Both the position numbers and the translations under genes were made by a program. The notes under the pieces are model-generated. The model had not been told where the DNA came from and searched no databases. It was given only the letters and a program-made list of their open reading frames with translations. Shown one piece after another: positions 32,293 through 52,620 of a DNA stretch of 64,000 nucleotides (position 1 is its first letter; every line of letters starts with the position of its first letter). Source of the DNA: an uncultured bacterium (lineage in GTDB: Bacteria > Cyanobacteriota > Vampirovibrionia > Gastranaerophilales > Gastranaerophilaceae); contig CACYVN010000001.1 in assembly GCA_902777855.1 (NCBI GenBank), positions 248,001 through 312,000 of the forward strand. The letters run 5' to 3'.

Positions 32293-34698
32293 ATGTTAGA
32301 CAGGGATAAAATAAGAGATTATCTGCAAAACAGAAATTTTGTAATGTGCATAACTTCGCTGTTTTTTATGTGCGGAATTTTGTCCTGCTTTTCAGGGAAA
32401 GAATTTATCAGTGCAATTGCCGTTACAATAATTCTTTCTGTCCTGTTAATAACAAAAATTTTTGATATCAAACGTGTACTGATTCTTGCTTTTGTATTTT
32501 ATTTCGGATTTATTTTGACATTTTTCAAAGTAAAAAATTCAGACGAACTTGTCAGTCTTGCGCCTGTTAATACTGATTTTTACGGTCAGATTGTAAGTAT
32601 TCCTAACAGTGCAGAAAAAGGGAAGGCAAAATTTTTCTTTGAAGTCGAAAAAGCCGGAAATAAAGAAGTTAAAGGGAAAACACTTTTAACAGTCAGCGCA
32701 GAAGAAAAAGAAATTGCAAAACTTAATATCGGACAAAAAATTACAATCCACGGGAATTTAAGACAACCATTCAGGTCAACAAATCCGTCACAATTTGATT
32801 ACAGTAATTATCTTAAAAATTTCGGAGTATTTACCGTTATATACTCTCAGGATAATAAATTTAAAATTCATAACAGTAAAATGAGTCCGAAATGGGAATT
32901 TCTGTATAAACTAAACAATGTAAGAAATTCCGTACTCAAAACACATTCTAAATATTTAAAAAGCCCGAATCTTGAAATTTTAGGCGGAATTGTATTTGGC
33001 GATGATGCGGTTGCCCCTCCCGATTATATAAAAAATTCTTTTATAAATTCCGGATTACTGCATATTCTTGCCGCATCAGGAATGAATGTCGGGTTTATAT
33101 TTTCTTTCTGGTTTTTCATAATGACGTTTTTGCGGATGCCGTATAAACCGAGAGTGATAACAGGCATGTTGCTTGTTATCGTATATACTTTAATGACAGG
33201 GCTCGGAGCTTCGGTTGTACGAGCATCACTAATGCTATTATTCGTTCTTGCAGGAAAACTCATTAACAGAGATACACATTCCATTTCGCTTTTATCTTTT
33301 GTTGCGGTGCTTATGCTGTTGTACAATCCCGCATATATTAATGATGTCGGATTCCAGCTTTCTTTTCTGGTCACTTTCGGACTTTTGACAACCGCAAATA
33401 TTATTATGAAAAAAACTGATAAAATTCCGGATAAACTAACCGCAATCATACTCATTCCGGTTGTTGCACAAATCTGGGTTGCACCGGTTCAAATGTTTTA
33501 TTTTAACACTTTCAGCCTGTATTCAATTCTTGCTAATATAGCATCTTCGGTACTTTTAATTGTAATAAGTTTTACGGGATTTATAAGTTCAGTTCTTGCA
33601 ATTTTTCAGCCGATTGCAGATTTTGTCTGCACGGGTTCCGATTTTATAAACAATCACCTTATAAATGTCCTTGTTATAATTTCTGATTTCTTCGGCTCTC
33701 TTCCACACAGTCTTATTCAGACCACACACCCAAATATCATTCAAATTTCCGTTTATTATCTTATGCTCATTTGCACATCTGTTCTTATTAAATACAATGA
33801 ATACAAAAAGGCTTTTATAACAATCGTTTCAGTTTCTTTTATTTTGCTTTTATCAACAATAAATATCCCTGATAAAAATCTTGAAATAATCGCTTTTGAT
33901 GTCGGAAATGCTGACAGTTTTATGATTAAAACACCGCAAAACAAATATTTTTTCATTGATACGGGTAAAATGCCGTATCAAAGCGGAAATTCTCAGGCAA
34001 AAATTATTATGCTCAAATACCTCAAAGACCACGGCATTAAAGACCTTGAAGGAGTCATCGTAACACACTTTGATAATGATCACTCGGGCGGAACAACGGA
34101 ATTTATCCAAAACACAAAGATAAAAACTCTGTATCTTAACAGCACAAAAACAGAAACTCAAACCGCCGTTAATATATTCAAAACTGCAAAAGAAAATAAT
34201 CAGAAATGGAAAATTGCCCAAAATAATAAACTGATATACAAAGAACCTGATTTGAAAATCTATACATATAAAGCAAATATCAAAGGAAAAGATGAAAGCA
34301 ACGGTTGTTCAATTATCACACTATTATCCTACAAGAATTTTGATATGCTTTTTATGGGCGATGCAGGAATTGATGCTTTTGAGCAGGTCAAACAAAATCT
34401 TGCGCACAATATTGAGGTATTAAAAGTCGGACATCACGGCGGACCGAATGTTGTGAATCAGAAAATGACCGAACATCTTAATAATAAAATTTCTCTTATT
34501 TCAACAGGGATAAATACTTTCGGGCATCCGAATAAAGGGACTCTTGATGTTTTGCGCAAAACTGAAATTTTAAGAACAGATTTGCTCAATTCAATCAAAA
34601 TTACTTCGGATGGGAATGAATACAAAATTTATTCTTATGACACGAATGACAAAAAGTATAAAATTAAACAGAGTTTTTATGCATTAAAGAACAGATAA
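32293..34698 (+). CDS. comEC: ComEC/Rec2-family DNA uptake channel
   Basis: This 801-residue protein has three parts. First comes an N-terminal membrane pair and OB-like DUF4131 region. Then the competence domain with many membrane segments (HILAASGMNVGFIFSF, MTGLGASVVRASLMLL, DVGFQLSFLVTFGLL) follows. Last is a C-terminal metallo-beta-lactamase-like nuclease domain with VTHFDNDHSGG and LKVGHHGG. It moves single-stranded DNA across the inner membrane during transformation and probably degrades the other strand. It is divergent from pilT, and both fit a DNA-uptake system using pili. The full domain set is intact. Confidence 0.9.
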   Translation: MLDRDKIRDYLQNRNFVMCITSLFFMCGILSCFSGKEFISAIAVTIILSVLLITKIFDIKRVLILAFVFYFGFILTFFKVKNSDELVSLAPVNTDFYGQIVSIPNSAEKGKAKFFFEVEKAGNKEVKGKTLLTVSAEEKEIAKLNIGQKITIHGNLRQPFRSTNPSQFDYSNYLKNFGVFTVIYSQDNKFKIHNSKMSPKWEFLYKLNNVRNSVLKTHSKYLKSPNLEILGGIVFGDDAVAPPDYIKNSFINSGLLHILAASGMNVGFIFSFWFFIMTFLRMPYKPRVITGMLLVIVYTLMTGLGASVVRASLMLLFVLAGKLINRDTHSISLLSFVAVLMLLYNPAYINDVGFQLSFLVTFGLLTTANIIMKKTDKIPDKLTAIILIPVVAQIWVAPVQMFYFNTFSLYSILANIASSVLLIVISFTGFISSVLAIFQPIADFVCTGSDFINNHLINVLVIISDFFGSLPHSLIQTTHPNIIQISVYYLMLICTSVLIKYNEYKKAFITIVSVSFILLLSTINIPDKNLEIIAFDVGNADSFMIKTPQNKYFFIDTGKMPYQSGNSQAKIIMLKYLKDHGIKDLEGVIVTHFDNDHSGGTTEFIQNTKIKTLYLNSTKTETQTAVNIFKTAKENNQKWKIAQNNKLIYKEPDLKIYTYKANIKGKDESNGCSIITLLSYKNFDMLFMGDAGIDAFEQVKQNLAHNIEVLKVGHHGGPNVVNQKMTEHLNNKISLISTGINTFGHPNKGTLDVLRKTEILRTDLLNSIKITSDGNEYKIYSYDTNDKKYKIKQSFYALKNR

Positions 34699-36158: not shown

Positions 36159-39100
36159 TTACCAGCATGCTGTACACGATCCGGAACTTATTGTACCTGA
36201 GTGTGTAGTTCCATTAGACTCCGATATAGAACATGATGATATAGAATCCAATCCAACGACTTCTAAATATCCGGGTGCCTGAATTGAAGCCCCAGCAGCA
36301 CAACCAAGTTCCGAGTGGCTGGCACAACCACAGTTCCACCCGACTTGTGATGACCACTGACCGGAAGAAGTGTAAGCGTTGGTATAACGTGAGCCGCCAC
36401 CAGGATAATCATTAGGATTACAACCCATTTGGAATGAATAAACACGTACATTGACAGTTACATAGCTTGGGCATCCTGAACCGGAAACTGTACATCTGGA
36501 CTTTGTACAAGACACAGTACACTTACTACACCCTCCTCCGCCATAATACGGATCTGAACCCGTATTGGTATAGCACCAGTCGCCGGAACCGGAGTGGTTT
36601 GCTTTGAAGGTAGAGTTACCACAGCAGGTTGTTTTATTTGAAGTATAACCTTGTGATTTATAGTATTCACAACAAACGTTATCAGATTTACCTGAAGACC
36701 CGCAACAAGCAGATTTATGAGAGTTTTTCCAAGAAGTTCCGCAACAAGAACTTAACCCGCTTGAACAACCACTGCAACTGCTTGAATTATAGTAATTACA
36801 ACAAGTGGTATCTGTATGACCTGACTTGCCGCAACAAGTTGCCAGATTGTTAGATTTGAATGTAGAGTCATATATAGTGGGAGTACAACAATTAGTTAAA
36901 TAAGTGCCAGTTAATACACCCCAGGACTTGAGATTAGTGCAACAAGAATTCATTTCCGATGATGACGGAGTACTTCCGTTGCACCATCTCCATTCCTTAC
37001 AAGTATTACTTCCGCAATAGAATCCCTTACTTGAACATTTATAATCCGAACAAGTACTGTCGGTACCACTTGCAGGGCAAGAATTACCTGAGACTCCAAA
37101 ATTGCTTGGCTTATATCTGTATGCGCCATTATCAAGAATATAACTGCAGCATCCTGAGTAAGAAGATCCCGTGAAGTTCCATGATGAACCACTATATGTT
37201 CTGCAGCAGTATTTTGGCCATTCAGAATCTGATGCAACAATTCCTAAGTTGTTAGCACAACAATAGGCAGCAGAACCAGCTGTAGTCTTACTTGACTCCA
37301 TTTTACTCGTAGAAAAAGTACTTGTCTTGTTACAAGCCCCTTTACATTCTTCTATATATCCGCCTCTGTAGGATGAATAACCGTCTTCACGACCGCCTGT
37401 CAGAGCCGAGCAGCAATATGCAGTCGGAGTTCCGAATAAGTTACCCCATCCTGACGGTTTGTTATTATACAAGCTGTTACAACAAGCTTTTTTATTATCA
37501 CCGCTTGCTAAGTATACACCGCTTGTAGAACAGCAGGAATCTTTCCATTTTTCGGTACAGTTACATTGATTGGTATTATATGTACAACAGAAATTGGTAG
37601 ATCCGGCTGATGTATTTAACGGTGAATTATTTGAACAACAACTTGATGAATTATGACCATTAATCAATGCACCATAGCCGGTAGCACAATAACACGAAGC
37701 ATCACGATAGACAGGGTAAGCACAGCAGTAATTGTTGTTTTCACTTGTTGCACCACCCGTACAACATCTTGAGTTATAATTACCGTTGGTCAATTTACCG
37801 TTACCGTTGGCACAGGTACACTGACTGTCTCTATTGCCTGTTACACAACAATAATTGCTGTTTGCGTTTGTCGGACTTGAACCGGTACAACACAGTGTTG
37901 AAGTACCTGCGGAATATGTTGTCCCGACACCATCGGCACAACAAACCGAAGCAAAGGTACTGTTATTTAAGTTGCCCGTACTTGGACTGCCGCAACAATT
38001 GCGACGCCACCAAGCACCCTGTGTATTGTTTGCAGGGCTCATACCGTAAGCATTTGAAGTTACAGGACTACAAGCCGTACCACTGGATCTTGAACCATTG
38101 GTTTCTTTACAGCAAGCAGCAGACAGCGGCATTTGTTTTCTCAATTGCTCAGAACAGGTACATTGTGCAGTAGAGTAATTGTTACAACAATAGTTGCTGC
38201 CCGCACTTGTAACAGTAGAGCCGTTACAACATCTGGGGAACCAGTTGCCGTTGTATGCACTGCCGTCTTTGCCGTTTACACAGGCACACTGAGCGGAACT
38301 CTTATATTTACAACAATAATGGTCATTTGCGGTTGTAACAGTAGAACCGTTACAACATCTGGTGAACCAGTTGCCGTTATATGCACTGCCATCCTGACTG
38401 TTTATACAAGCGCACTGATTTGAACTCTTGTTTTTACAACAATAGTGGTCACCTGCAGTGGTTACTGTAGAGCCGTTACAACATCTGGTTGTCCAATTAC
38501 TGTTGTATGAACTGCCATCCTGACCGTTTATACAACGACACTGATCAGTATAACCCTGTTTACAGCACCAGTCGGATTTCGTGCCGTCTATTGCAGAGCC
38601 GTTACAACATCTTGTATATTGATGACTGCCATATGCATTACCATAGCTATCCAAACAACGGCACTGATTTGTATAGCCCTGAGTACAACAGTAATCTGAC
38701 CAGTTGCCAAGTACATTGTCACAACACAACGGAGATGAACCGCCTGACTTTGTTGAACCAGTTGTATTAGAACAACAATCAGATTTAAATTGAGCATCAG
38801 TTAAACCGCCGGTAGAAGGACTTGAACAACAGTTGCGCTGCCACCAAGCACCCTGTGTATTGTTTGCAGGATTCATACCGTAAGCATCTGATCTTACAGG
38901 ATTACAAGCCGTACTGCTTGTTCTTGAAGCTTTGGTTTCTTGACAGCAAGAAGCAGACAGCGGGATTTGTTTTCTCAAATTTTCAGAACAGGTACATTGT
39001 GCAGTAGAATAATTGTTACAACAATAGTTGCTGCCCGCACTTGTGACAGTAGAGCCGTCACAACATCTGGTGAACCAGTTACCGTTATATGCACTGCCAT

Positions 39101-41453
39101 CCTTACTGTTTACACAGGCACACTGAGCGGAACTCTTATATTTACAACAATAATGGTCATTTGCGGTTGTAACAGTAGAACCGTTACAACATCTGGTGAA
39201 CCAGTTACCGTTATATGCGCTGCCATCATAACTGTTTATACAAGCGCACTGAGATGAACTCTTATATTTACAACAATAATGGTCATTTGCGGTTGTAACA
39301 GTGGAGCCGTCACAACATCTTGTGAACCAGTTGTTGTTGTATGCACTGCCGTCTTTGCCGTTTACACAAGCACACTGATCTGCACTCTTATATTTACAAC
39401 AATAATGGTCATTTGCGGTTGTAACAGTAGAACCGTTACAACATCTGGTGAACCAGTTGCCATTGAATGCGCTGCCGTCTTTGCCGTTTACACAAGCGCA
39501 CTGATTAGAACTCTTATACTTACAACAATAATGGTCATTTGCGGTTGTAACAGTGGAGCCGTCACAACATCTTGTGAACCAGTTGCTGTTGTATGCACTG
39601 CCGTCTTTGCCGTTTACACAAGCGCACTGATCTGCACTCTTATTCTTACAACAATAGTGATCTCCGGCAGTGGTTACCGTAGTACCGTTACAACATCTTG
39701 TGAACCAGTTGCTGTTGTATGCGCTGCCATCTTTACCATCAACACAAGCACACTGATTTTTATTTACATTCTTACAACAATAATGATTGCCGGCTGTGGT
39801 AACTGTAGAACCGTCACAACATCTGTTGAACCAGTTGCCGTTATATGCGCTGCCATCCTTACTGTTTACACAAGCACACTGATTTTTATTTACATTCTTA
39901 CAACAATAATGATCGCCGGCTGTGGTAACTGTAGAACTGTCGCAGCATCTGTTGAACCAGTTGCCGTTATATGCGCTGCCATCCTTACTGTTTACACAAG
40001 CACACTGAGCGGAGCTCTTGTTTTTACAACAATAGTGGTCACCTGCGGTTGTAATAGTCGAACCGTCACAACATCTTGTGAACCAGTTGCTGTTGTATGC
40101 GCTGCCATCCTTACTGTTTACACAAGCACACTGATTTTTATTTACATTCTTACAACAATAATGATTGCCGGCTGTGGTAACTGTAGAACTGTCACAACAT
40201 CTGTTGAACCAGTTGCTGTTAATAGCGCTTCCATCTTTACCATCAACACAAGCACACTGATTTTTATCATAACTCTTACAACAATAATCAGTATTATCTC
40301 TTGTTATTGTAGAGCCGTCACAACAATGCGTTGTGGTACCTCCGCCTGTTGCACTGCCGTTCTTACCGTTTGTACAACAAGATGTTCTAAACTGGTCTCT
40401 TGTTAAACCACCCGGGTTACCGCTTGCACAACATTGAGATTTCCAGTGAGCATTTGTATATGAGCTTTTGGTTTCAGCACAACACTCTACAGGGCTGCGC
40501 ATTGTCATTGAATTTGCTAACCTGTATGCACAGGTACATTGATTATTTGAATAATTTTTACAACAATAGTTGTCATTATCTGCTGTTCTGTCTGAAGTAG
40601 AACCTGTACAACAATGTGTATTTGTACCTCCGCCTGTTGCACTGCCGTTTGTGCCGTTTGTACAACAAGACGTTCTAAATTCATCTCTTGATAAACCACC
40701 CGGGTTTGTACCGGCACAACACTGTGATTTCCAGTGAGCATTTTTATATGAGGCTTTGGTTTCTCCGCAACAATTTACCGGCGAAGTCAATGTCATTGAG
40801 TTGCTCAATCTGTATGCACAGGTACATTGATTATTTGAATAGTTTTTACAACAGAAATTGTCATTATCAGACAATCTGTCTGAAGATGAACCAGTACAAC
40901 AATATGTGGTTGTACCGCCGCCTGTTGCACTGCCGTCTTTGCCGTTTACACAACAAGATGCCCTGAACTGATCTCTTGATAAACCACCGGGGTTAGTTGA
41001 TGCACAACATTGAGATTTCCAGTGACCATTTGTGTATGATGCTTTGGTTTCAGCACAACACTCTACAGGGCTGCGCATTGCCATTGAATTTGCTAATCTG
41101 TATGCACAAGTACATTGATTGCTTGAGTAATTCTTACAACAATAATTATCGTTATCTGCTACTCTGTCAGATGTCGAACCGCTGCAACAATGAGTGTTCC
41201 ATCCGCCATCTTTTACATAACCTGTTTTGGGATTTGAACAACAATAAGTTCTGAATGTATCTCTGGCAACTCCACCAGGATTGGCTCCCTTACAACAAAC
41301 ACTTACAAAACTTGACTGTGTAGCAGAATTGCTTGCAATTCTTGATAATACCGTTGAATTTGTACAACATCCGACACCTCTGACATAATTATATGTGGTT
41401 GCTGCATTTACACAGGTACAATGAGTATCTTTATTTGCGGTGCCCATATTCAA
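36159..41453 (-). CDS. Giant Cys-Cys-repeat protein, third (C-terminal) segment of the prepilin-like reading unit
   Basis: This open frame of 1764 residues has more than 70 Cys-Cys doublets spaced about every 10-30 residues, and many Ser, Asn, Gly and Thr. Parts in order: three or so ~96-residue repeats (QCTCAYRLANSM, HWKSQCC, NPGGLSRDQF), ten tandem 42-residue repeats (HYCCK, QCACVNGKDGSAYN, NWFTRCC, GSTVTTA), mixed modules, and a final ~150 residues with single cysteines, a GGGG linker and no doublets. The frame has no signal peptide and no ribosome site at its TTG/ATG starts. The cysteine-rich reading continues upstream across a -1 frame change at 41512-41514. It is therefore probably the distal part of one gene with the two segments upstream. 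Confidence 0.75.
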   Translation of the reverse strand: MNMGTANKDTHCTCVNAATTYNYVRGVGCCTNSTVLSRIASNSATQSSFVSVCCKGANPGGVARDTFRTYCCSNPKTGYVKDGGWNTHCCSGSTSDRVADNDNYCCKNYSSNQCTCAYRLANSMAMRSPVECCAETKASYTNGHWKSQCCASTNPGGLSRDQFRASCCVNGKDGSATGGGTTTYCCTGSSSDRLSDNDNFCCKNYSNNQCTCAYRLSNSMTLTSPVNCCGETKASYKNAHWKSQCCAGTNPGGLSRDEFRTSCCTNGTNGSATGGGTNTHCCTGSTSDRTADNDNYCCKNYSNNQCTCAYRLANSMTMRSPVECCAETKSSYTNAHWKSQCCASGNPGGLTRDQFRTSCCTNGKNGSATGGGTTTHCCDGSTITRDNTDYCCKSYDKNQCACVDGKDGSAINSNWFNRCCDSSTVTTAGNHYCCKNVNKNQCACVNSKDGSAYNSNWFTRCCDGSTITTAGDHYCCKNKSSAQCACVNSKDGSAYNGNWFNRCCDSSTVTTAGDHYCCKNVNKNQCACVNSKDGSAYNGNWFNRCCDGSTVTTAGNHYCCKNVNKNQCACVDGKDGSAYNSNWFTRCCNGTTVTTAGDHYCCKNKSADQCACVNGKDGSAYNSNWFTRCCDGSTVTTANDHYCCKYKSSNQCACVNGKDGSAFNGNWFTRCCNGSTVTTANDHYCCKYKSADQCACVNGKDGSAYNNNWFTRCCDGSTVTTANDHYCCKYKSSSQCACINSYDGSAYNGNWFTRCCNGSTVTTANDHYCCKYKSSAQCACVNSKDGSAYNGNWFTRCCDGSTVTSAGSNYCCNNYSTAQCTCSENLRKQIPLSASCCQETKASRTSSTACNPVRSDAYGMNPANNTQGAWWQRNCCSSPSTGGLTDAQFKSDCCSNTTGSTKSGGSSPLCCDNVLGNWSDYCCTQGYTNQCRCLDSYGNAYGSHQYTRCCNGSAIDGTKSDWCCKQGYTDQCRCINGQDGSSYNSNWTTRCCNGSTVTTAGDHYCCKNKSSNQCACINSQDGSAYNGNWFTRCCNGSTVTTANDHYCCKYKSSAQCACVNGKDGSAYNGNWFPRCCNGSTVTSAGSNYCCNNYSTAQCTCSEQLRKQMPLSAACCKETNGSRSSGTACSPVTSNAYGMSPANNTQGAWWRRNCCGSPSTGNLNNSTFASVCCADGVGTTYSAGTSTLCCTGSSPTNANSNYCCVTGNRDSQCTCANGNGKLTNGNYNSRCCTGGATSENNNYCCAYPVYRDASCYCATGYGALINGHNSSSCCSNNSPLNTSAGSTNFCCTYNTNQCNCTEKWKDSCCSTSGVYLASGDNKKACCNSLYNNKPSGWGNLFGTPTAYCCSALTGGREDGYSSYRGGYIEECKGACNKTSTFSTSKMESSKTTAGSAAYCCANNLGIVASDSEWPKYCCRTYSGSSWNFTGSSYSGCCSYILDNGAYRYKPSNFGVSGNSCPASGTDSTCSDYKCSSKGFYCGSNTCKEWRWCNGSTPSSSEMNSCCTNLKSWGVLTGTYLTNCCTPTIYDSTFKSNNLATCCGKSGHTDTTCCNYYNSSSCSGCSSGLSSCCGTSWKNSHKSACCGSSGKSDNVCCEYYKSQGYTSNKTTCCGNSTFKANHSGSGDWCYTNTGSDPYYGGGGCSKCTVSCTKSRCTVSGSGCPSYVTVNVRVYSFQMGCNPNDYPGGGSRYTNAYTSSGQWSSQVGWNCGCASHSELGCAAGASIQAPGYLEVVGLDSISSCSISESNGTTHSGTISSGSCTACW
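38990..40310 (-). repeat. Ten tandem 126-bp (42-residue) repeats inside the giant gene
   Basis: On the plus strand the core CCGT(T/C)ACAACATCT(G/T)GTGAACCA recurs about every 126 bases, and on the minus strand each unit encodes a 42-residue Cys-rich repeat. Adjacent units are nearly identical at DNA level, indicating recent expansion by unequal recombination. Two or three further units lie near 38180-38480. Confidence 0.85.
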
Positions 41454-41545
41454 ACAACAATAATCAGTTTGCCAGTTGCCGCCTTTTGTACAACAACGTT
41501 TATCACTCTGACCCTTGTCGAACCGTCACAGCAGTTTGTCTGCCA
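41323..41545 (-). repeat. Duplicated block within the giant gene, copy B
   Basis: Bases 41323-41514 match 41988-42179 with about three mismatches in 192 bases. The match resumes as TTG(T/C)(C/T)GAACCGTCACAG to 41545 after a 36-base segment present only in the other copy. It includes the reading-frame change at 41512-41514. Confidence 0.8.
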
Positions 41546-42118
41546 TAAATTTGTGCCTTTATTGGTTGACTGCATTGTAGAATCAGTACAACAAGTCGGT
41601 AAATTCCATCTTGATGAATCGGATTTTGCCCTGATTGCACAACTTTCGCAGTAATCAGCACTCAAATTACAACAAGCAATCTTGAAGGATTCAGATGGAG
41701 CAGTACCACCGTTATTTTTCCATCCGTTATTCTTATATGCCGCACAACAAGTCGCATTCGCAACAGTAAATGTACAACATCTGCTGTCAGCCCCTGACGG
41801 GTATGCTACACCGTCATTTGCAGTAGAATAATCTGCACAACAAGTCTTTTGTACCCAATATGTATAGTTCTTATCAGGACAACAATATGATTTGTATCTG
41901 CTTCTTATAGGCTGAGATGAAGTATCTGTCGTGGAATCCATTACACTTGACTGGCTGCAGCATTTGCCTTTCCAATCACTCAAGGTCGCAGAATTGCTTG
42001 CAATTCTTGATAATACCGTTGAATTTGTACAACATCCGACTCCTCTGACATAATTATATGTGGTTGCCGCATTTACACACGTACAATGAGTATCTTTATT
42101 TGCGGTGCCCATATTCAA
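41450..42118 (-). CDS. Giant Cys-Cys-repeat protein, middle segment of the prepilin-like reading unit
   Basis: This open frame of 222 residues is bounded by the two duplicated blocks. It reads MGTANKDTHCTCVN and then repeats the module with NATCC, KNNGWKNN, CAIRAKS, WNLPTCC and WQTNCC seen several times in the segment upstream. In-frame cysteine-rich sequence (SDKRCCTKGGNWQTDYCC) lies before its first start codon, so it does not look like an independent gene. Its last 20 residues (RVINVVVQKAATGKLIIVV) are out-of-frame translation after a -1 shift and are identical to the last residues of the upstream segment. It has no signal peptide and no ribosome site. Confidence 0.65.
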   Translation of the reverse strand: MNMGTANKDTHCTCVNAATTYNYVRGVGCCTNSTVLSRIASNSATLSDWKGKCCSQSSVMDSTTDTSSQPIRSRYKSYCCPDKNYTYWVQKTCCADYSTANDGVAYPSGADSRCCTFTVANATCCAAYKNNGWKNNGGTAPSESFKIACCNLSADYCESCAIRAKSDSSRWNLPTCCTDSTMQSTNKGTNLWQTNCCDGSTRVRVINVVVQKAATGKLIIVV

Positions 42119-42246
42119 ACAACAATAATCAGTTTGCCAGTTGCCGCCTTTTGTACAACAACGTTTATCACTCTGACCCCTGCAGTGCTCAGGGAGTTTC
42201 TTGATGAGCTGCCGCTTGTTGAACCGTCACAGCAGTTTGTCTGCCA
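41988..42246 (-). repeat. Duplicated block within the giant gene, copy A
   Basis: This is the partner of 41323-41545, offset by 665 bases, with a 36-base (12-codon) extra segment between 42180 and 42216. It carries the first reading-frame change, at the CCCC run 42177-42180 (GGGG on the coding strand). Confidence 0.8.
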
Positions 42247-45200
42247 AGCGGATTCACTCTTGTGACGAGCCTGCATTCCGCCCTTGTTACAACAAGTCGG
42301 AAGATTATATCTTGAAGAAGAATCCGTTAAACTTCTGATACGGCAGTTTTCTTCATCGGTAGGATTACCGTCACATATATTGTATTGCTTACAACAGTAT
42401 ATTCTGTACGCTTCACTGATTGAATCGCCATCCCAGTTTTTCCATCCGTTTGCTTTAAATGCGGTACAACATGCAGAAGTCGGAGCTGATGCATCCGGAT
42501 TACAACAGAATTTAACATCGTTTTGTGAAGACGGGTTTTTAGTCGCATTTACACCATCACCATTACAACATCCTGCAGTAGAAGAACGATATGCAGCGTT
42601 TGAAGGATAATTTGTTCTGTATTTACAACAATCAGACTGCCAACGAGCTTTACCGTTATCAGTTCCTTTCATCGCATTACAGCAAGCATCACTGGTTGCC
42701 ATATTCTTGTCAAGTTTTGAACCGCAAGAACAATATTTGTCATTATTTATCTGATCACAACAAGATTTTTTGTAACCGGTATCTCTTGTAGCAGTTGTAT
42801 TATTCCAGCCTGCAGAACTCATTTTAGCATTACAACAGGTTTCTGTCGGATAACTTTCTAAATAATAACAACACTGTGTTACAGTTGTTACACCGCCCCA
42901 GTCAACACCTTCAGTTGACTTGCTTGCGGAAGAACTGGAGTTTGTTTTACAACAAGTAGAATTTAACCAAGTTGCTTTATCAACATAAGCTCCGCCATTA
43001 TTACAACAATATGTATAATGTCTGTCTCTTACGGTATTATTTGCAGGGGATGTGTGAACATTCGATCTGGTACAGCATTTTGACTGCCAATCCGCACGTG
43101 TGGTTGCATCCTTTGTAATACTCTTTGAGGCATTGGTTAATACATCCGAATTTACACAACAATCACCATAATTCTGGTTGACAACCTGCCATGTATTTGC
43201 ACCAGTAGTACAGTTACAGTGATATCCGATATTTGTTAAATCACTTCTACCGGACGGCTCATAAGAACAGCAATATTGATTGTTTAATTTAGTTCCGCCA
43301 TCAGCACTCTTACAACAACGTTTATCCTGCGTTCCTGATTTTAATGTAGCATCAGATGTGCCGGCACTTGAACAACAGTAATTTCTGTAATCAGAAATAC
43401 TTAATGTATTCAAACTTGAGGTTCCTCCTGTACCGCCGTCACAACAAGCACTGCGCCATACTTTATCGGAATCTTTGTAGTGTTGAGTTTGCATTGTTGA
43501 GTCTTTACAACAAGTCGGCAAGTTATACATTGAAGAGTTCCAAGTATTACTTCTTATTCTGCAGGCATCTGCACCTTCAGGACATACACCGTGTAATTTA
43601 CAACAAGCAGTCTTATAGGCATCGTTTATAGTTTCGCCATCATGGCTCTTCCACGCACCTGTCTTTGATGTATCATAAGCCTTGAACGCTTCGCAACAAG
43701 CTTTGGACGGAGCAATACCTGATACTGCACCTGTTGAAGTATTTACACTGACGGCATTTGGAATACAACAACTGATACTATTTTGATTTGCACCATCGTT
43801 TGTATCCTTAAATGTTTGTTCTGTATTCGGTTTACAACAACCGCTTCTGTAATCAGCATAACTTGCATATCCATCTGATGTTCTTATGCCTGTATAACGA
43901 CAACAGTGAGCTTTCCAGAAATCTTTTGTCTTACCGTATTTGGAATCATTGCCGTTTGCAAGTCGTTTACAACAACTTGAGAAGTTATATTTACCATTAT
44001 TACCTGCGGATGCATGATTTGCGCTGACATCTGAAGCCGCAAGTCCGGTTCTCCAACGAATAGGACAACTGTCATAACATTTATCTCGTAAAATACAACA
44101 AGCAAGTTTATAAGCTTCATTTATTGTATTACCGTCATGGTCTTTCCAATCCTGAGTACCATCACCTGACTTAGTTCCTGCATGAGCATTAAATGCATCA
44201 CAACATGCCGCAGTCGGGGCAATACCTGATACCGCACCGGACGAAGATACTGTTGCCTGGTTTGGAATACAACAATTAATATTATTCTGAGATGAACCGC
44301 TGTTACCGGATTTGAAAGTTTGGTCGGTTGACGGATTACAACAACCGCTTCTGTAATCAGCATAACTTGCATATCCGGCGGTATTATTACCTGCAGGATT
44401 TACAGGAGAGTATGCACAACAATTATCTTTCCAAATTGCTTTTGTTCTGTTTACTGCAGTACTTGAATTAACAGGACTGCTGTTTGTTGCAAGCGCTCTG
44501 TCTGTACAACATCTTGAGAAATCATAGTTAATACTTGCCTTAGATTCCGGAGTATTCCATCTGATTGCACAAGTATCAGGGCAATAGTTTGTTGCAGTAT
44601 TTGAACCGGCAGCAGTACTCTTGTTGCAGCAGTATGTCATATAATCATTGCTTAAAGTGTTTCCGTCCCAATCTTTCCATGTATTTACATTTCCTTTTGA
44701 ACGGAATAATTTACAACATTCTGTATTAGGATTTGTAGAATTAGGGAAACAACAGTATTCAACATTTGTTGAAGTATCACCTTCACCTTTTCTTTGCCTG
44801 TCAGAAGCTGCACCCTGGCAACAGAATTGACGGTACGCAGCATTTTTACCTGTTACATTTGACTGATAATATGCAGGATTATCACAACATCCGTTTTTCC
44901 AAGCTGAAGTAGGAATATCTTCATTCGCTTTTATAAGCGACCAATTTATACAACATCCGTTTGCTATTTCGGAACTCAATTTTGATGGAGTTACACCGTA
45001 ACCGTATCTTGCACCGCACATCCATAATTCTTCGCAGTTCAAACCGTCTTTGTTACCATACGCCTGACAACAAGCCGCTTTATAATATTTAGAAAGCGCA
45101 CCTCCATCGTTGTTCTTCCACTCCCTGCCCATGAAATAATCACAACATTCTTTTTTCGGAGTATTTGTTGAACCCCATGTGAATTTGTTATTATTATCGG

Positions 45201-47658
45201 TTATAGAAGGATTGTCTGCCATATCAGGGTCACAGCAGTATTGCTGATTTGAACTGTTATTTACGTTAGCAGCATTTTTTGAGTTAGGATTATCGGCATT
45301 ATCACTGTTTCTTGTATAATCCGTATCAGTATTCTTTGCTTTGCTGTTAGAAGTATTGTCATCATAACAGCAGAATTTTCTGTATTCTACGTTATTAGAA
45401 TACTGTTTAGGCAAACTACAACAATTCTTTTTCCATTTTTCATCAGTAGTATCAAGACCGGATTTTGTACAACATCCTTCAGTCCAGTTTCCGTTAAGTT
45501 TACAACATTTTGATTCTTCTTCATAATATTTATGATTTGTTGCTAAATTACCGCCTTTGAAACCATAACAACAATGTGACTGCCAAAAATCGTCACGGCT
45601 CTTATTGTACTGATTATCTATTGTTTCACAGCATTCATTCTTTGTTTGATTGAAATACTGCCATGAATCTCTGTTCGCACCTTTCGCAGCCGCATTCGAA
45701 TTACAACATGCTGCGTTATATGTTGCATCTGAAGGATATTTTGCTCTGGTCAAACTACAGCAGTTTTTCTGCCATTGACCTTCCGTATTTGCCTTATGCC
45801 CGTTATAGGTATTATCACCGTATGAACAACAACCTTCCCAACGTTTGTTATTCCAAAATGCATTATTTTCTCCTGTAGCACTCGGCACATCAAAACAACA
45901 TTTTATATCAGGAGTTACATTTTTATTATATATGCTGTTTGGCATACAACATACAGATGAATATGTAGTATCGTACGCAAAAACACCATCCGTTGAATTA
46001 CTGCAGCATTGAGGATATTTTACTGAATCTTTCTTAAAAATAGTATATTTACAACATCTTCTTAAAGCTTGGCCATGAAGAAGTTTATCTTTCCCGACTT
46101 TTGCCTGCTCGATTAAGTATTCACAACAAGCCTCATCTTCAGTTGCATCAGATTGCTCTGCATTAATAGTACAACAACGTTTTAAAACTTCTAAACTTTT
46201 TGCATCCGTCTTACCTTTTGCATATTTAATACCTCTGACATTACCGTGACAACAACCGTCGAATGTTCCGGAATCGACATTATAGTCGTGTTTCGCATAA
46301 TAATCAAGCGTGGTATTGATGTGTTCATATTTCCATTTACAACATTGATCAGAGTTATTTTTAGGTAAACGACAACAGTATTTGTTATATGCGTTGTTTT
46401 CGCCCTGTGCATCCAACCCGTTAACGGCTTCGTACATACAACAAGCATCATCAGGGTTTCTTATTTCGTTTCTTCTTGAAACGGTATTACAACATTGTTC
46501 GCTGTTATTATTTTGTTCACAGGCAGGTTTACAAGCAGAATATTCCTGATAAATTGCAGGATATTTCGTACAACAGTTACTGTCTGCAGTTAATTTTAAT
46601 TTACCGCTGTCAATATTTTTCTTACAACAACCCTCAGTTTCAGGGTGAACAGAACAACAATAATCACTCGTATCATTCGGAGCACAACACATCGGATCAT
46701 TCTTGCCCTGTGATGCTAAGATAGCACAACATTCATCTGCCGGACCGGTTATTGCATGATTTGAACATTCATCTATCTTACAATTCGGATCTGTTTCAGG
46801 ATCACAACCCGGAGATAAAGGATAACAAATATTATGGTTTGCTCCCGTAGAGCCATCTCTATACCACGGACAACACATATCATCCGGACCAGATGCAACA
46901 AAGCCGTCACGTTTACAACATTCTTCGCCTCGAGGATTAACTTTACAAGGATCTTTTTCTATTTCACCACAATTCTCTCCCTCACAAGGTGGTTTCGGGT
47001 CAACAATGATGACTTTTGTAGGCTCTTCTTCAGTAAATACCGCTTTTTGTTTTAAATTAATCGCAAAAGTTCTTAAATCACGTCCGTATATATTTGGTCC
47101 CTTAGGGCCGTTTAAATCAATCCATCCCTGGATTTCTTCCTGCCCGCCGGAATTTTTTACCTGGGGTTTTAAGCAGATACTTACACCGTTTTTAAGAAGC
47201 GCACAAGCACCTTTTACATCCTTTATATCAAATTCTACTCTGTCATTATCTTTGTATTCATAATACTTTCTGCCAAAACAATCTCCCGGTTCATTTCCGC
47301 AGTATTTTACAACTTTCATATATTTATTAATATATGCCCCGGCATTATTTGCATAATTTCCGTTATCACTTTCAACATACATCATTGTACCGGCTATGTC
47401 TTCTTTATTCTCGTTTAAAGGCAAGCCTTCCAATGAATTTAACATCTGTTTGACTTCTGATTCATAGGACAGTGCAAAAGATTTATTTTGGGCTCTTGTT
47501 GTAATTACAGGCAATATCAAAACCGCAATGACAGCGACTACTCCCAATGCAATTAATACTTCCGTAATTGTAAAACCGTGTTTGTTCCCCTTCAGTTTAT
47601 TGCTCAATGCAGTTAAAAATCCACCCATAAGCGGAAATAACCCCTTTTTATGCGGCAT
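42115..47658 (-). CDS. Giant type IV prepilin-like cysteine-rich surface protein, N-terminal segment
   Basis: This open frame of 1847 residues begins with a prepilin leader ending KHG, then FTITEVLIALGVVAVIAVL with glutamate at +5, so it should be processed by prepilin peptidase and assembled or anchored through type IV pilus machinery. Residues ~53-215 resemble a pilin head domain (GRDLRTFAINLKQ). From ~225 onward the sequence is modules with frequent Cys-Cys doublets, including a ~150-residue module repeated four or more times (ACC.AF, KDHDGNTIN, C.IR, SYADYRSGCC). GAGG precedes the ATG. The last 20 residues are out of frame; cysteine-rich coding continues in the -1 frame. Disulfide-stabilised stalk or adhesin is an inference. 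Confidence 0.85.
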   Translation of the reverse strand: MPHKKGLFPLMGGFLTALSNKLKGNKHGFTITEVLIALGVVAVIAVLILPVITTRAQNKSFALSYESEVKQMLNSLEGLPLNENKEDIAGTMMYVESDNGNYANNAGAYINKYMKVVKYCGNEPGDCFGRKYYEYKDNDRVEFDIKDVKGACALLKNGVSICLKPQVKNSGGQEEIQGWIDLNGPKGPNIYGRDLRTFAINLKQKAVFTEEEPTKVIIVDPKPPCEGENCGEIEKDPCKVNPRGEECCKRDGFVASGPDDMCCPWYRDGSTGANHNICYPLSPGCDPETDPNCKIDECSNHAITGPADECCAILASQGKNDPMCCAPNDTSDYCCSVHPETEGCCKKNIDSGKLKLTADSNCCTKYPAIYQEYSACKPACEQNNNSEQCCNTVSRRNEIRNPDDACCMYEAVNGLDAQGENNAYNKYCCRLPKNNSDQCCKWKYEHINTTLDYYAKHDYNVDSGTFDGCCHGNVRGIKYAKGKTDAKSLEVLKRCCTINAEQSDATEDEACCEYLIEQAKVGKDKLLHGQALRRCCKYTIFKKDSVKYPQCCSNSTDGVFAYDTTYSSVCCMPNSIYNKNVTPDIKCCFDVPSATGENNAFWNNKRWEGCCSYGDNTYNGHKANTEGQWQKNCCSLTRAKYPSDATYNAACCNSNAAAKGANRDSWQYFNQTKNECCETIDNQYNKSRDDFWQSHCCYGFKGGNLATNHKYYEEESKCCKLNGNWTEGCCTKSGLDTTDEKWKKNCCSLPKQYSNNVEYRKFCCYDDNTSNSKAKNTDTDYTRNSDNADNPNSKNAANVNNSSNQQYCCDPDMADNPSITDNNNKFTWGSTNTPKKECCDYFMGREWKNNDGGALSKYYKAACCQAYGNKDGLNCEELWMCGARYGYGVTPSKLSSEIANGCCINWSLIKANEDIPTSAWKNGCCDNPAYYQSNVTGKNAAYRQFCCQGAASDRQRKGEGDTSTNVEYCCFPNSTNPNTECCKLFRSKGNVNTWKDWDGNTLSNDYMTYCCNKSTAAGSNTATNYCPDTCAIRWNTPESKASINYDFSRCCTDRALATNSSPVNSSTAVNRTKAIWKDNCCAYSPVNPAGNNTAGYASYADYRSGCCNPSTDQTFKSGNSGSSQNNINCCIPNQATVSSSGAVSGIAPTAACCDAFNAHAGTKSGDGTQDWKDHDGNTINEAYKLACCILRDKCYDSCPIRWRTGLAASDVSANHASAGNNGKYNFSSCCKRLANGNDSKYGKTKDFWKAHCCRYTGIRTSDGYASYADYRSGCCKPNTEQTFKDTNDGANQNSISCCIPNAVSVNTSTGAVSGIAPSKACCEAFKAYDTSKTGAWKSHDGETINDAYKTACCKLHGVCPEGADACRIRSNTWNSSMYNLPTCCKDSTMQTQHYKDSDKVWRSACCDGGTGGTSSLNTLSISDYRNYCCSSAGTSDATLKSGTQDKRCCKSADGGTKLNNQYCCSYEPSGRSDLTNIGYHCNCTTGANTWQVVNQNYGDCCVNSDVLTNASKSITKDATTRADWQSKCCTRSNVHTSPANNTVRDRHYTYCCNNGGAYVDKATWLNSTCCKTNSSSSASKSTEGVDWGGVTTVTQCCYYLESYPTETCCNAKMSSAGWNNTTATRDTGYKKSCCDQINNDKYCSCGSKLDKNMATSDACCNAMKGTDNGKARWQSDCCKYRTNYPSNAAYRSSTAGCCNGDGVNATKNPSSQNDVKFCCNPDASAPTSACCTAFKANGWKNWDGDSISEAYRIYCCKQYNICDGNPTDEENCRIRSLTDSSSRYNLPTCCNKGGMQARHKSESAWQTNCCDGSTSGSSSRNSLSTAGVRVINVVVQKAATGKLIIVV

Positions 47659-47693: not shown

Positions 47694-47705
47694 ATACGTA
47701 CGTAT
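47694..47705. promoter_or_regulatory. Palindromic operator-like site at the giant gene's start point
   Basis: ATACGTACGTAT is a perfect 12-base palindrome at the predicted transcription start. Another TACGTA lies at 47751-47756, upstream of the -35. Such flanking copies suggest a repressor or regulator site. Confidence 0.35.
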
Positions 47706-47709
47706 ATTA

Positions 47710-47739
47710 ATTATACCATCAGACCATGCCCTATGTCAA
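47710..47739 (-). promoter_or_regulatory. Consensus sigma-70 promoter of the giant prepilin-like gene
   Basis: On the minus strand TTGACA (47734-47739) and TATAAT (47710-47715) both match consensus, with an 18-base spacer. The predicted leader is about 45 bases before the ATG at 47658. Confidence 0.75.
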
Positions 47740-47907: not shown

Positions 47908-49374
47908 ATGAGCATAAACACCCCGAACAAACAGACTTCACATTTAAAACGTGAAATTCTTGTCAGACTTATAAGAGCATATTTAGGTGAAAATTATGCT
48001 GAAGATGTTCGCTTAATACCATATAATATGCGTCCGCAAGGAAGTGATGTTCTATTTAGATGCTGTATTCACAAGGAACGGGCAATATTAAGAGACAGAG
48101 TTATCGCCGGTTTAGGGTTTGATATTGAAGAAGTGAAAGATTATGAACTGTTGTCAAATTTGGCGGATAAAGCAACCACAAGAGAAAAACCTGAAAAAAA
48201 TCCGCTGACACTTTTACAAACGGCATGTAATGAATGCGTTCCTGCAAGAATTCACGTTACTGATTTGTGCCAGGGTTGCGTGGCAAGGCCTTGCGAAAGC
48301 GCTTGTAAGTTCGGAGCTATAAAAGTTGTTGACGGGAAATCAAAAATTGATCAATCAAAGTGTAAAAGTTGCGGGCTTTGCGCTCAGGTTTGTCCTTTTC
48401 AGGCTATTACAAAAATTATTGTACCCTGCGAAAATGCCTGTCCGGTCGGTGCTATTGCGAAAGACGAAGACGGTTTAACAAAAATTGATTTTAATAAATG
48501 TATATCATGCGGAAAATGTGTAAGTGCGTGTCCTTTTGGTGCAGTTCATAAAAAAAGCCAAATTATTGATATTTTAAAAAATATTAAAAGTGGTAAAAAA
48601 GTTGTTGCGATGCTTGCACCTGCAATTATGGGGCAATTACCCTGCACCCCTGAACAATTGAAACAGGCAATTATGGAACTTGGTTTTACAGACGTTATAG
48701 AGGTTGCGCAAGGTGCGGATATCACAACTAAAAATGAATCTGAGGAATTTAAAGAAAGAGTAGTTGACGGCAAAGCTCCGTTTATGACTACTTCCTGCTG
48801 CGCCGCTTATAACGAACTTGTTGATAAGCATATACCGGAAATTGATAAATATCGTTCGACAACCAAAACTCCTGCATATTACGCTGCAGAAATAGTTAAA
48901 AAAGAACATCCGGATTATTTAACCGTATTTTTCAGCCCTTGCGTTGCAAAAAGAACTGAAGCAAGCAAAAACCCGAATATTGATTATGTATTGAGCTTTG
49001 AAGAACTCGGAGCGTGGTTTGTAGCACGCAACATACAGGTAGCGGAATGCAAAGGTTCAAACTTTAAAACCGAATCATCAGCTCAGGCAAGAAACTTTGC
49101 AGTAACAGGCGGAGTGGCACAAGCTGTAAATTCACTATTAGATGATAAACACAAAGCAACACCTTATGTAATTAACGGACTTGATAAAGCAAGCATAAGA
49201 GATTTGAAAAAATTCGCCAAAAACGGGAAATGCGAACTTGGGAATCTTATTGAAGTTATGGCCTGTCCGGGTGGATGTTTGGGAGGTTCAAACACCATTA
49301 ACTCATATAAACAGGCTACAAAACAATTAGGGGCTTACGTAGAACAAAGCCCTGAAATTAAAGATATAATCTAA
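47908..49374 (+). CDS. hydA: Monomeric [FeFe] hydrogenase, catalytic type
   Basis: This 488-residue enzyme should interconvert protons and H2 using reduced ferredoxin. Several cysteine groups, including CKSCGLCAQVCP and CISCGKCVSACP, bind [4Fe-4S] clusters within residues 107-210. The H-cluster domain has all three signature loops: TTSCCAAY (about 294-301), SPCVAK (343-348) and EVMACPGGCLGG (449-460). It retains the proton-relay cysteine. The arrangement fits group B monomeric [FeFe] hydrogenases. It is the first gene of a five-gene operon; AAAGGA precedes the ATG. The HydEFG maturases needed for its cofactor are not in this window. Confidence 0.85.
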   Translation: MSINTPNKQTSHLKREILVRLIRAYLGENYAEDVRLIPYNMRPQGSDVLFRCCIHKERAILRDRVIAGLGFDIEEVKDYELLSNLADKATTREKPEKNPLTLLQTACNECVPARIHVTDLCQGCVARPCESACKFGAIKVVDGKSKIDQSKCKSCGLCAQVCPFQAITKIIVPCENACPVGAIAKDEDGLTKIDFNKCISCGKCVSACPFGAVHKKSQIIDILKNIKSGKKVVAMLAPAIMGQLPCTPEQLKQAIMELGFTDVIEVAQGADITTKNESEEFKERVVDGKAPFMTTSCCAAYNELVDKHIPEIDKYRSTTKTPAYYAAEIVKKEHPDYLTVFFSPCVAKRTEASKNPNIDYVLSFEELGAWFVARNIQVAECKGSNFKTESSAQARNFAVTGGVAQAVNSLLDDKHKATPYVINGLDKASIRDLKKFAKNGKCELGNLIEVMACPGGCLGGSNTINSYKQATKQLGAYVEQSPEIKDII

Positions 49375-49732: not shown

Positions 49733-51457
49733 ATGACAAAACAAATACAGCATCCGGTTTATACGCTGACAAATGAATGTAAAGACTGCTATAAGTGTGT
49801 CAGACATTGTCCTGTTAAAGCGATTAAAATAGAAAACGACCACGCATCCGTCATTCCGGAAAAATGCATTTCCTGCGGACGCTGCGTTCAGGTTTGTCCG
49901 ACAAATGCAAAATGTGTAAGGACTGATATTGAAAAGATAAAAAATCTTTTTATAGCCAAGAAGGATATTTATGTATCTCTTGCACCATCGTGGCGTTCTG
50001 TCTTTGAAAATTCCGCAAAAAAAATGATTGCAGTATTAAAAAAGTTAGGATTTAAAGAAGTCTCGGAAACAGCTCTCGGGGCGCAGGAAGTTTCTATTCA
50101 CGATGCAGAAATTTTAAACAACATGAATAAAGGCCTTTTAATTTCCAGCGCATGTCCGGTAATTGTAGATTATATAAGACTTTATAAACCTGAGTTTTCA
50201 AAATACATTACACCTATAGGCTCTCCTGCAAAAACACATGCAAGAATGCTCAAAAATACTTATGGAAATGATATTGCCGTTGTATTTATCGGACCTTGCA
50301 TAGGCAAGAAAAATGAAGCAGATGAAGATGACGGATTGATAGATGTATCAATAACTTTTGAAGAATTAAAATACTGGATAGCTGATGAAATCGGAGATAT
50401 TTCGGAAATTAAAAAAGAAAATGACTACGAATTTGTACCATATAGTGCACACGAAGGAACACTATATCCGATAAATGGCGGAATGAACGAAACTATCCGA
50501 AAAGTAGGAATAAAACCTGAAATTCAATTAATGGAAATCTGCACAATTTCAGCATTTGAAAAAGCACTTGAAAATCTCAATCCGGATAAACTTTCTTCAC
50601 CCGTATTTGTTGAGGCTTTAGCCTGTGAATCAGGATGCATAACGGGTCCTTGTATTGCATCAAACAAGGCAAGTATCAGTTCTATTTCCGATGTTATGAA
50701 TAAGGTTAAAGTACGCAATGAAATTCCGCAAAAAGCAACTACTGTTGTAAAATGTGATTACAGCCCGAAAGCTGTCAGTTCATCAAAATATTCTTTGGAT
50801 GCAATCCAGTCTGCCCTGAAAAAGATAGGTAAACACACCGAAGAAGACGAATTAAACTGCGGCGGATGCGGATATTCTTCCTGCAGAGAACTTGCCGTGG
50901 CACTTTTAGACGGAGTTGCAGAAACTTCAATGTGCGTTTCATATATGAGGAAAATCGCAATGCGAAAAGCGGCAGCAATGTTGCGTTGTATGCCATCAGC
51001 TATAGTTATGGTTGATAATAACATGAGAATATTAGAAGCAAACGACAGTTTTATGAAAATGTTTGCCGGAGAGATGTACGATGTCTTTCATTCCCGTCCT
51101 GACGGAATGACAGGAGCATCCATAGACAGAATTGTTGATTTTTCGGATATTTTCTCTACTATTCTAAAAACAGGCAAAGACCTGCATAAAGAACATTATC
51201 CGGTCAAAGACAGACTATATGATATAAGTGCATTTACAATTGAAGAAAATGAAATTGTCGGTGCGGTCATAACCGATGTAACTCAGACTGAAACTACAAG
51301 AGAAAAAATTTCGGAAAAAGCAAGGGAAGTTATTTCCAAGAACATTTCAATAGTTCAGGAAATCGCCTGTCTCTTAGGGGAACATATGGTTGAAACCGAA
51401 ACACTTCTTAACTCCATTGCAAATGATTACGACGATAAATCTGAGGGCGAAAAATAA
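49733..51457 (+). CDS. Sensory [FeFe] hydrogenase with iron-sulfur and PAS domains (HydS/group C-like)
   Basis: This 574-residue protein is ordered as a two-cluster ferredoxin domain (CKDCYKCVRHCP, CISCGRCVQVCP; residues 16-55), an H-cluster domain (about 80-310), an Fe4S-type CGGCGYSSC motif (376-384) and a PAS domain (about 415-520). A helical tail follows. The first loop reads SSACPV: the proton-relay cysteine of catalytic enzymes is alanine at about residue 140, as in the sensory HydS of Thermotoga. The other loops, GPCIGK and ALACESGC, keep the cluster cysteines. It probably senses H2 or redox state and signals to the PP2C phosphatase whose ATG overlaps its stop. Confidence 0.85.
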   Translation: MTKQIQHPVYTLTNECKDCYKCVRHCPVKAIKIENDHASVIPEKCISCGRCVQVCPTNAKCVRTDIEKIKNLFIAKKDIYVSLAPSWRSVFENSAKKMIAVLKKLGFKEVSETALGAQEVSIHDAEILNNMNKGLLISSACPVIVDYIRLYKPEFSKYITPIGSPAKTHARMLKNTYGNDIAVVFIGPCIGKKNEADEDDGLIDVSITFEELKYWIADEIGDISEIKKENDYEFVPYSAHEGTLYPINGGMNETIRKVGIKPEIQLMEICTISAFEKALENLNPDKLSSPVFVEALACESGCITGPCIASNKASISSISDVMNKVKVRNEIPQKATTVVKCDYSPKAVSSSKYSLDAIQSALKKIGKHTEEDELNCGGCGYSSCRELAVALLDGVAETSMCVSYMRKIAMRKAAAMLRCMPSAIVMVDNNMRILEANDSFMKMFAGEMYDVFHSRPDGMTGASIDRIVDFSDIFSTILKTGKDLHKEHYPVKDRLYDISAFTIEENEIVGAVITDVTQTETTREKISEKAREVISKNISIVQEIACLLGEHMVETETLLNSIANDYDDKSEGEK

Positions 51458-52620
51458 TGTTTATCGATATTGACTGCCATCAGATAAAAAAGTATAACCA
51501 AAACGCATTCGGAGATTATTTTGTATCAAAAAGATATCCTGATGAAGCACGGCTTGTTGCAGTTTTATCCGACGGTTTGGGCTCCGGTATTAAAGCAAAC
51601 ATTCTGTCTTGCATGACAGCAACAATGCTTTTGCGATTTGTTGAGGGAGATCAAATACCAATTAGGGATGCCGCGGAAATCGTTATGAATTCACTTCCTG
51701 TATGTCAGGTAAGAAAGATAAGTTATTCAACGTTTTCAATTATTGATGTTAATGATGAAGGTCACGCAAAAATCGTCGAAGAAGGTAATCCTGATTTTAT
51801 ATGGATTCACAACGGCGAAGTTATGAAACCTCAATTTGAATCAATTCCGTCAAAAAATCATAAAAACCGTTGTATGAAAAGTTATAAAATTAAACTTGAA
51901 CTTGGAGACAGACTGATATTTTGTTCCGACGGAATTACTCAGTGCGGTTTGGGAAACGAAAAATTAAAACTCGGTCTGCGAAGAAGCGGACTGATAAATT
52001 TAGTTTTTGATAAACTTAAACAAGACCCTGAAATTTCGAGTTCGGAACTTTCTTCATACCTTGTAAAACAGGCAAGAAATATTGAAACAGACCGGAACCC
52101 GAAAGACGATATGTCAGCACTTGTTCTGTATTGCAGGGAACCGAGAAAATCACTCGTATTTACAGGACCTCCGTTTAATCAGAAAAATGATGCACAATAT
52201 GCCCAAATCTTTATGGATTTTAAAGGTAAAAAGGCTATTGCAGGAGGAACAACGGCAAATCTTTTATCGAGGGAACTTAATATTCCGATTGCAATGGATA
52301 CAACAATCAGTATCGGGAAACTTCCGTCCTGCTCATATATGGATGGGGTTGATTTGGTTACAGAAGGAATTTTAACTCTAACCCAGACCCTTGAATATTT
52401 AGAAAACGGAGATTGGGATATTGACAATGCGGCAGGGAAGTTGGTAAAATTTTTACTGGATAGCGATTGTATATATTTCATGGTCGGGGCAAAACTCAAT
52501 CAGGCGCATTACAATCCGAATATGCCGATTGAAATCGAAATCCGTAAAAACATAATCAAAAAAATGAAAAATGTTTTGCAGGATAAATACTATAAGAAAG
52601 TTAGTGTACAGTATATATAG
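51457..52620 (+). CDS. SpoIIE-like PP2C serine/threonine phosphatase
   Basis: This 387-residue protein has PP2C-SpoIIE motifs: an aspartate in VLSDGLGSGIKAN near residue 39, LIFCSDGITQCG with a metal aspartate, and RNPKDDMSALVLY. The last ~150 residues (KKAIAGGTTANLLSREL onward) are a conserved extension in hydrogenase-linked phosphatases of this kind. The ATG overlaps the stop of the sensory hydrogenase by one base, so the products are likely made together. The inferred role is to dephosphorylate a regulatory protein in response to H2. No anti-sigma or STAS partner is encoded nearby. Confidence 0.85.
   Translation: MFIDIDCHQIKKYNQNAFGDYFVSKRYPDEARLVAVLSDGLGSGIKANILSCMTATMLLRFVEGDQIPIRDAAEIVMNSLPVCQVRKISYSTFSIIDVNDEGHAKIVEEGNPDFIWIHNGEVMKPQFESIPSKNHKNRCMKSYKIKLELGDRLIFCSDGITQCGLGNEKLKLGLRRSGLINLVFDKLKQDPEISSSELSSYLVKQARNIETDRNPKDDMSALVLYCREPRKSLVFTGPPFNQKNDAQYAQIFMDFKGKKAIAGGTTANLLSRELNIPIAMDTTISIGKLPSCSYMDGVDLVTEGILTLTQTLEYLENGDWDIDNAAGKLVKFLLDSDCIYFMVGAKLNQAHYNPNMPIEIEIRKNIIKKMKNVLQDKYYKKVSVQYI

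Follow-up and report, generated by a model that had tools for sequence, protein, structure and literature searches.

On the minus strand of the window (the whole stretch of DNA analysed, 64,000 nucleotides), the interval 36159-47658 is occupied by three open reading frames (ORFs) in three different frames, all of them rich in Cys-Cys (CC) doublets. The preliminary description had treated this interval as a single gene of 11.5 kb; its coordinates in fact span three ORFs with two -1 junctions between them. The features of the three ORFs are listed below.

42115-47658, minus strand: ORF A, 1847 aa, with the leader, the pilin domain and the first CC stalk (68 CC); it ends in the out-of-frame tail VRVINVVVQKAATGKLIIVV
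47575-47658, minus strand: class III (prepilin) leader of 28 residues ending in KHG, with predicted cleavage before F29 and Glu at +5
47014-47574, minus strand: mature pilin-like domain of ~190 aa (alpha-1 helix plus ~155 aa), with 4 Cys
42178-46956, minus strand: first part of the CC stalk, made of diverse modules
41450-42118, minus strand: ORF B, 222 aa counted from the first TTG, with 9 CC and without a signal peptide
42178-41453, minus strand: CC frame proper of ORF B
36159-41453, minus strand: ORF C, 1764 aa, with the second CC stalk and the C-terminal domain (76-78 CC)
40320-41195, minus strand: three tandem CC units of 96 aa (288 nt) in ORF C
38056-40323, minus strand: CC units of 42 aa (126 nt) in two blocks, 39016-40323 and 38056-38607
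36159-36542, minus strand: Gly-rich linker and C-terminal domain of ~120 aa, without CC doublets

When the three frames are joined and both shifts are ignored, 3,833 codons with 416 Cys and 157 CC doublets are obtained, at a Cys content of ~11%; the earlier estimate of a stalk protein of ~3,800 residues thus holds for the number of codons and not for an intact protein, of which there is none in the assembly. ORF A, which has 159 Cys after residue 220, contains its 68 doublets against 15.6 expected and a maximum of 25 in 2000 shuffles, and for ORF C the values are 77 against 28.5 expected and a shuffle maximum of 37. These counts, far beyond the shuffled expectation, bear out the dominance of Cys-Cys doublets that had been noted previously, and the figure of more than 70 doublets given there for the last segment agrees with the count for ORF C. 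An antisense ORF of 375 aa at 39279-40406 was dismissed as a shadow of the repeats.

The doublets of the stalk recur every 10-45 aa, with Trp enriched 7-14 fold and Tyr up to 4 fold at position -4 relative to the doublet, and among 11 relatives no column other than those of Cys is invariant. The 42-aa unit follows the pattern CC-x12-CC-x7-CxC, giving six Cys per unit. When compared by eye, the C-terminal ~120 aa are unlike their counterparts in the related genomes G016, G015 and G035 and vary by species, a divergence that an adhesin tip might show. Neither the stalk nor the C-terminus scored above the cut-off of any Pfam or NCBIfam family, and a PDB sequence search with the 42-aa array gave no match. 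A DNA-level scan of the order for the TGTTGT triplet was non-discriminating, its other matches being Val-rich or CRISPR repeats; among these chance matches was a repeat array of TTTAATACCTATATTAAATTTCTACTGTTGTAGAT resembling Cas12a-type CRISPR (G122:C32:59154-59979).

The sequence across the predicted cleavage site, KHG followed by FTITEVLIALG, combines the leader Gly, a hydrophobic alpha-1 segment and Glu at +5, as expected of the class III signal peptide of a type IV prepilin and as read in the preliminary description. The window copy scores 22.6 bits against NCBIfam TIGR02532 (cut-off 16.3) and falls slightly short for Pfam N_methyl (19.2, cut-off 21.2), the latter cut-off being exceeded in G015, in the own-genome paralogue L010 and in L019 and L022. 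Homologues of the pilin domain were found in 28 of 60 relatives (E<=1e-20), and PDB sequence matches to the N-terminus were confined to the pilin helix. An AF2 model of the pilin domain placed a helix at residues 31-77 followed by six strands, at low confidence (mean pLDDT 38), and the other AlphaFold model was likewise poor (pLDDT 48); both were too weak for a fold search and therefore demonstrate neither a pilin fold nor a pattern of disulfides. A pilin domain and an extra module in one polypeptide, the defining arrangement of modular pilins, occur in intact form in G016, G015 and G035, and in the window itself are continuous only in the 1,847 aa of ORF A.

Promoter, gene neighbourhood and relatives

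The region upstream of ORF A contains the following features.

47710-47739, minus strand: promoter TTGACA-N18-TATAAT with a conserved GGCATGG spacer element
47694-47705, minus strand: 12-bp perfect palindrome ATACGTACGTAT, just past the -10 box
47908-49374, plus strand: [FeFe]-hydrogenase-like ORF of 488 aa, with the CC gene on one side and the sensory hydrogenase pair on the other
49733-52620, plus strand: [FeFe]-hydrogenase with FeS and PAS domains and an overlapping SpoIIE-type phosphatase gene, a sensor-like pair

The consensus promoter proposed earlier is indeed present and is kept before the orthologues. Searching the 46 genomes of the genus with the pattern TTGACAN{2,5}GCATGN{6,11}TATAAT returned nine matches, seven of them directly upstream of genes for giant CC proteins (G000, G002, G012, G016, G017, G031 and G063), and the reversed-pattern control gave no match in the same genomes. 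The spacer is N17 or N18 across the giants, and G064 has the same promoter element with TAAAAT as its -10 box. The palindrome ATACGTACGTAT follows the promoter in G000, G016 and G002 and is partly retained in G064 and G063, so that it may be regarded as a possible candidate operator. In six species the CC gene is divergent to the sensory-type [FeFe]-hydrogenase/PAS gene and the SpoIIE phosphatase gene. However, this pair is absent from the locus in G063, where the CC gene and its promoter are present, and the link between the two is consequently positional at most. The 488-aa hydrogenase-like ORF is absent at the syntenic position in G016, G012, G031, G002 and G064. Elsewhere in the window, ORFs of 1243, 572, 503 and 333 aa (17131-20862, 25117-26835, 57551-59062 and 59064-60065, respectively) had no Pfam match at 1e-3.

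The clearest relative is a single intact ORF of 2,481 aa in G016, with a prepilin leader and a CC stalk of 97 doublets, to which ORF A aligns over its full length (48% identity overall, 84% in the N-terminal 214 aa) and residues 1280-1644 of ORF C align at positions 1906-2285 (36%). Further intact versions occur in G015 (1,556 aa, 40 CC) and G035 (1,101 aa, 25 CC). In G012, G031 and G064 the frame is still open at the contig ends, in G002 the gene begins at a contig end, and in G063 the frame is open for 2,110 aa, with 80 CC, until a masked stretch; an apparent ORF of 26,118 aa in the last genome is an artefact of this 72-kb stretch of masked N. G033 has a partial copy, and G012 and G017 each have a second, divergent copy; the end of one G017 frame after 911 aa (G017a) was attributed to a chimeric contig and the break in the other (G017b) to an N gap. 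The absence of any homologue sharing the prepilin-plus-CC architecture had been named as a finding that would speak against the original proposal; some ten sister species share this architecture, so that the proposal is not refuted on this count.

A profile of the CC region matched 11 of 383 genomes of the order, all within one of its 52 genera. The pilin domain is more widespread in the family, where it is almost always found in short frames. Many species of the genus also have shorter relatives in which the same pilin domain is accompanied by few doublets or none (0-7 CC); these form a graded series with 0, 2, 5 and 7 CC behind a prepilin leader, and one of them, the paralogue L010 (495 aa, 5 CC), lies with its own prepilin leader in the same genome as the window. 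Together with the giants, the series from 0 to more than 150 doublets within one genus represents a natural experiment in the growth of a stalk from a normal pilin. Two of the genomes, G007 and G008, have at least 10 and at least 7 short pilin relatives, respectively, a strong paralogue expansion, and in G032 (L053, contig C5) a related pilin gene is split by a frame change exactly between the pilin domain and the CC region. No description of such a protein was found in the open-access literature, and its size, its CC module and its restriction to one genus are new relative to the family and structure libraries searched.

Frame changes at a 198-nt repeat

Both frame changes coincide with copies of a direct repeat.

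41985-42182, minus strand: 198-nt direct repeat, copy 1, at junction 1 (ORF A to ORF B, -1 frame), with 55 nt missing
41320-41517, minus strand: 198-nt direct repeat, copy 2, at junction 2 (ORF B to ORF C, -1 frame), with 91 nt missing

The copies are 97% identical and lie 665 nt apart. The junctions are at 42178 (A to B) and 41513 (B to C), both at the start of the duplicated segment that begins with GGGTCAGAGTGATAAACG, and the missing nucleotides, the lengths of which were judged by alignment to an intact unit further upstream in the gene and to G016, would sit directly before GGGTCAGAGTGATAAACG; both losses equal 1 modulo 3. The junctions contain no N runs and no homopolymeric tract of at least 6 G/C or at least 7 A/T, and inspection of the overlaps revealed no canonical slippery heptamer. 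Phase variation by homopolymer slippage was therefore dismissed, and a loop-out between the repeat copies (665 nt, 2 modulo 3) would be expected to leave the frame unrestored.

The pattern of substitution indicates that the sequence on both sides of the junctions has been maintained as protein. The two repeat copies differ at five positions over 195 nt, all five synonymous in the CC frame. The fourteen 42-aa units of ORF C give a dS of 1.01 and a dN of 0.23; for its three 96-aa units, the values are 1.0 and 0.18; and in the measurable blocks of the alignment between ORF A and G016, dS is 1.2-2.1 and dN 0.12-0.31. With dN/dS at ~0.1-0.25 on either side of both shifts, the CC frames flanking the junctions are, as judged by these ratios, under purifying selection, and the synonymous repeat differences and low dN mark the part downstream of the breaks as alive, until recently at least. 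The breaks are consequently either assembly faults at the repeat edge or very recent damage.

If the breaks are real, the gene has recently been inactivated, and only the first 1,847 aa (the pilin domain and 68 CC) can be made, or the locus is a young pseudogene. The losses of 55 and 91 nt are clean and free of N runs, they lie in a repeat-rich gene of a kind that recombines, and other assemblies, such as that of G032, also contain copies that are truncated or split. Set against this, the frames beyond the breaks have stayed open throughout and show purifying selection, and some of the other split copies are plain assembly faults (the N gap of G017b and the chimeric contig of G017a). For two deletions to have arisen independently and yet share an end point would also take a coincidence, whereas an assembly fault at the repeat edge needs none and would explain the right end common to both losses. 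We think an assembly error somewhat more likely than recent inactivation, which we view as possible yet doubtful.

Pilus machinery and the state of the cysteines

A prepilin peptidase and pilus assembly machinery are both encoded in the genome.

C3:64151: prepilin peptidase (Peptidase_A24)
C9:44737: T2SSF (PilC-type) protein
C9:41868: secretin
31098-32258 of the window: PilT-like ATPase (T2SSE)

The PilT-like ATPase gene is divergently adjacent to a ComEC-like gene (31098-34698 of the window), a pairing that by its gene content points to competence or pilus functions. The genome also encodes VKOR and DsbA domains in one ORF of 413 aa, with the motifs CPIC and CVMC, so that both the peptidase and the oxidative folding route that the preliminary description had suggested looking for were found. 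Two paired pilin-like genes lie ~3 kb away from this fusion gene (L060, C5:30000-42000). A dedicated link between VKOR and the giant was dismissed because VKOR is genus-wide, occurring in 44 of 46 genomes whether the giant is present or not.

The presence of this machinery bears on the suggestion that the protein is a prepilin-anchored fibre that never reaches the outside, being tethered to the inner membrane in the periplasm or forming a pseudopilin-type structure such as a type II-like pseudopilus. The leader is the only family-defining part of the protein and the NCBIfam matches below cut-off include pseudopilins, both in keeping with such a fibre. The secretin, PilC-type protein and PilT-like ATPase argue for a pilus instead, and a stalk of such length, if extended, would not fit into the narrow periplasm; we therefore consider a purely periplasmic fibre unlikely.

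Whether the cysteines serve as disulfides or as thiolates can be judged from their number and spacing. Of 30 complete pilin-type proteins, 27 have an even mature Cys count (P=4e-6), as do 17 of the 19 bearing CC (P=4e-4), the chimeric G017a frame being excluded; these values treat the proteins as independent, and their relatedness inflates the test. ORFs A and C contain no CxxCH, the motif expected of a multihaem cytochrome, and no CxxCxxC, as a metallothionein or metal site might show, and Trp or Tyr precedes the doublets instead. Even parity and the lack of these motifs favour disulfides over metal binding. Of the two roles proposed earlier for the cysteines, oxidative folding thus gains support from their even number and the VKOR-DsbA route, and metal binding finds no metal or haem motif. 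A metal-binding or redox-active sheath, in which the cysteines would hold metals or carry electrons, could draw on the ~11% Cys content and on the divergent hydrogenase/phosphatase pair. However, this pair is missing in G063, VKOR-DsbA is present, and the doublets, at intervals of 10-45 aa with an aromatic residue at -4, are unlike those of metallothioneins, making such a sheath very improbable. Metallothioneins and keratin-associated proteins are likewise Cys-rich with CC motifs, but their spacing is short, their CC is not preceded by an aromatic residue, and they have neither a prepilin leader nor a giant length.

Interpretation and comparison with known systems

Our current working hypothesis, to which we assign a probability of about 0.6, is that this locus is, or was until very recently, the gene for a giant modular type IV (minor) pilin whose stalk is locked by disulfides, probably an adhesin-like fibre. 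Prepilin peptidase would remove the class III leader, and the alpha-1 helix and ~190-aa pilin domain would anchor the protein in the inner membrane, from which it would be taken up into a type IV pilus or pseudopilus to serve there as a minor subunit of the tip type. In the periplasm, the VKOR-DsbA fusion would oxidise the 40 to more than 150 CC-bearing modules to form a narrow, protease-resistant, disulfide-locked stalk ending in the Gly-rich linker and the divergent C-terminal domain, which would probably bind a ligand or surface; the length of the array may shift through unit duplication and recombination. In this scheme we infer the disulfides, incorporation into the pilus, the export route and the tip and adhesin functions. 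A programmed -1 frameshift at each of the two copies of a single site, or production of three proteins by re-initiation at TGA-AT-ATG, would account for the same site being used twice in the same direction with conserved downstream frames, but is hardly credible given that slippery heptamers (on inspection) and homopolymeric tracts are absent, the orthologues are unshifted, part of the sequence has been lost by comparison with the intact unit, and ORFs B and C lack an export signal.

More tentatively, the giant modular pilin may represent a genus-specific class of pilus-displayed fibres, with 40 to more than 150 CC forming a continuous disulfide-ladder stalk of a previously undescribed kind, a dedicated conserved promoter and a VKOR-DsbA oxidant in an anaerobe, and may include the largest pilin-type proteins known. 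If the main reading is correct, type IV pilin stalks can be several times longer than the most extreme case in a 2021 survey of modular pilins and can be built, in a presumed anaerobe, from a Cys-doublet repeat that has no described family. This would raise the questions of how more than 400 Cys per molecule are oxidised in an anaerobe and where VKOR passes its electrons, how the secretin lets a protein of this kind through, and which partner the divergent C-terminal domain recognises. Published genomes of gut Melainabacteria are without quinones (PMC3787301), which, if the Vampirovibrionia label of the present DNA is right, would leave the electron acceptor of VKOR unexplained.

In modular pilins, the pilin module carries grafted binding modules, for which exposure at the tip of the filament is presumed (PMC8179133). 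The closest parallels are PilB and PilC of Streptococcus sanguinis, which likewise combine a class III leader, an N-terminal pilin module and a large non-pilin module, and for which tip display and ligand binding have been proposed (PMC8179133); however, PilB has a mass of ~50 kDa and the fold of its vWA module is known (PMC8179133), in contrast to the Cys-doublet repeats described here. The most extreme multi-domain case named in the survey has 860 aa (PMC8179133), compared with 1,101-2,481 aa in the intact relatives and ~3,830 codons in the window. The large minor (pseudo)pilins CofB and GspK are similarly minor subunits with extra domains at the filament tip (PMC8179133), but are small and without a cysteine-doublet repeat stalk. 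TraA of Myxococcus is a polymorphic receptor with a variable domain on a cysteine-rich stalk (PMC12045341); it is not a pilin and is anchored in another way, and its resemblance to the giant CC pilins is functional at most.
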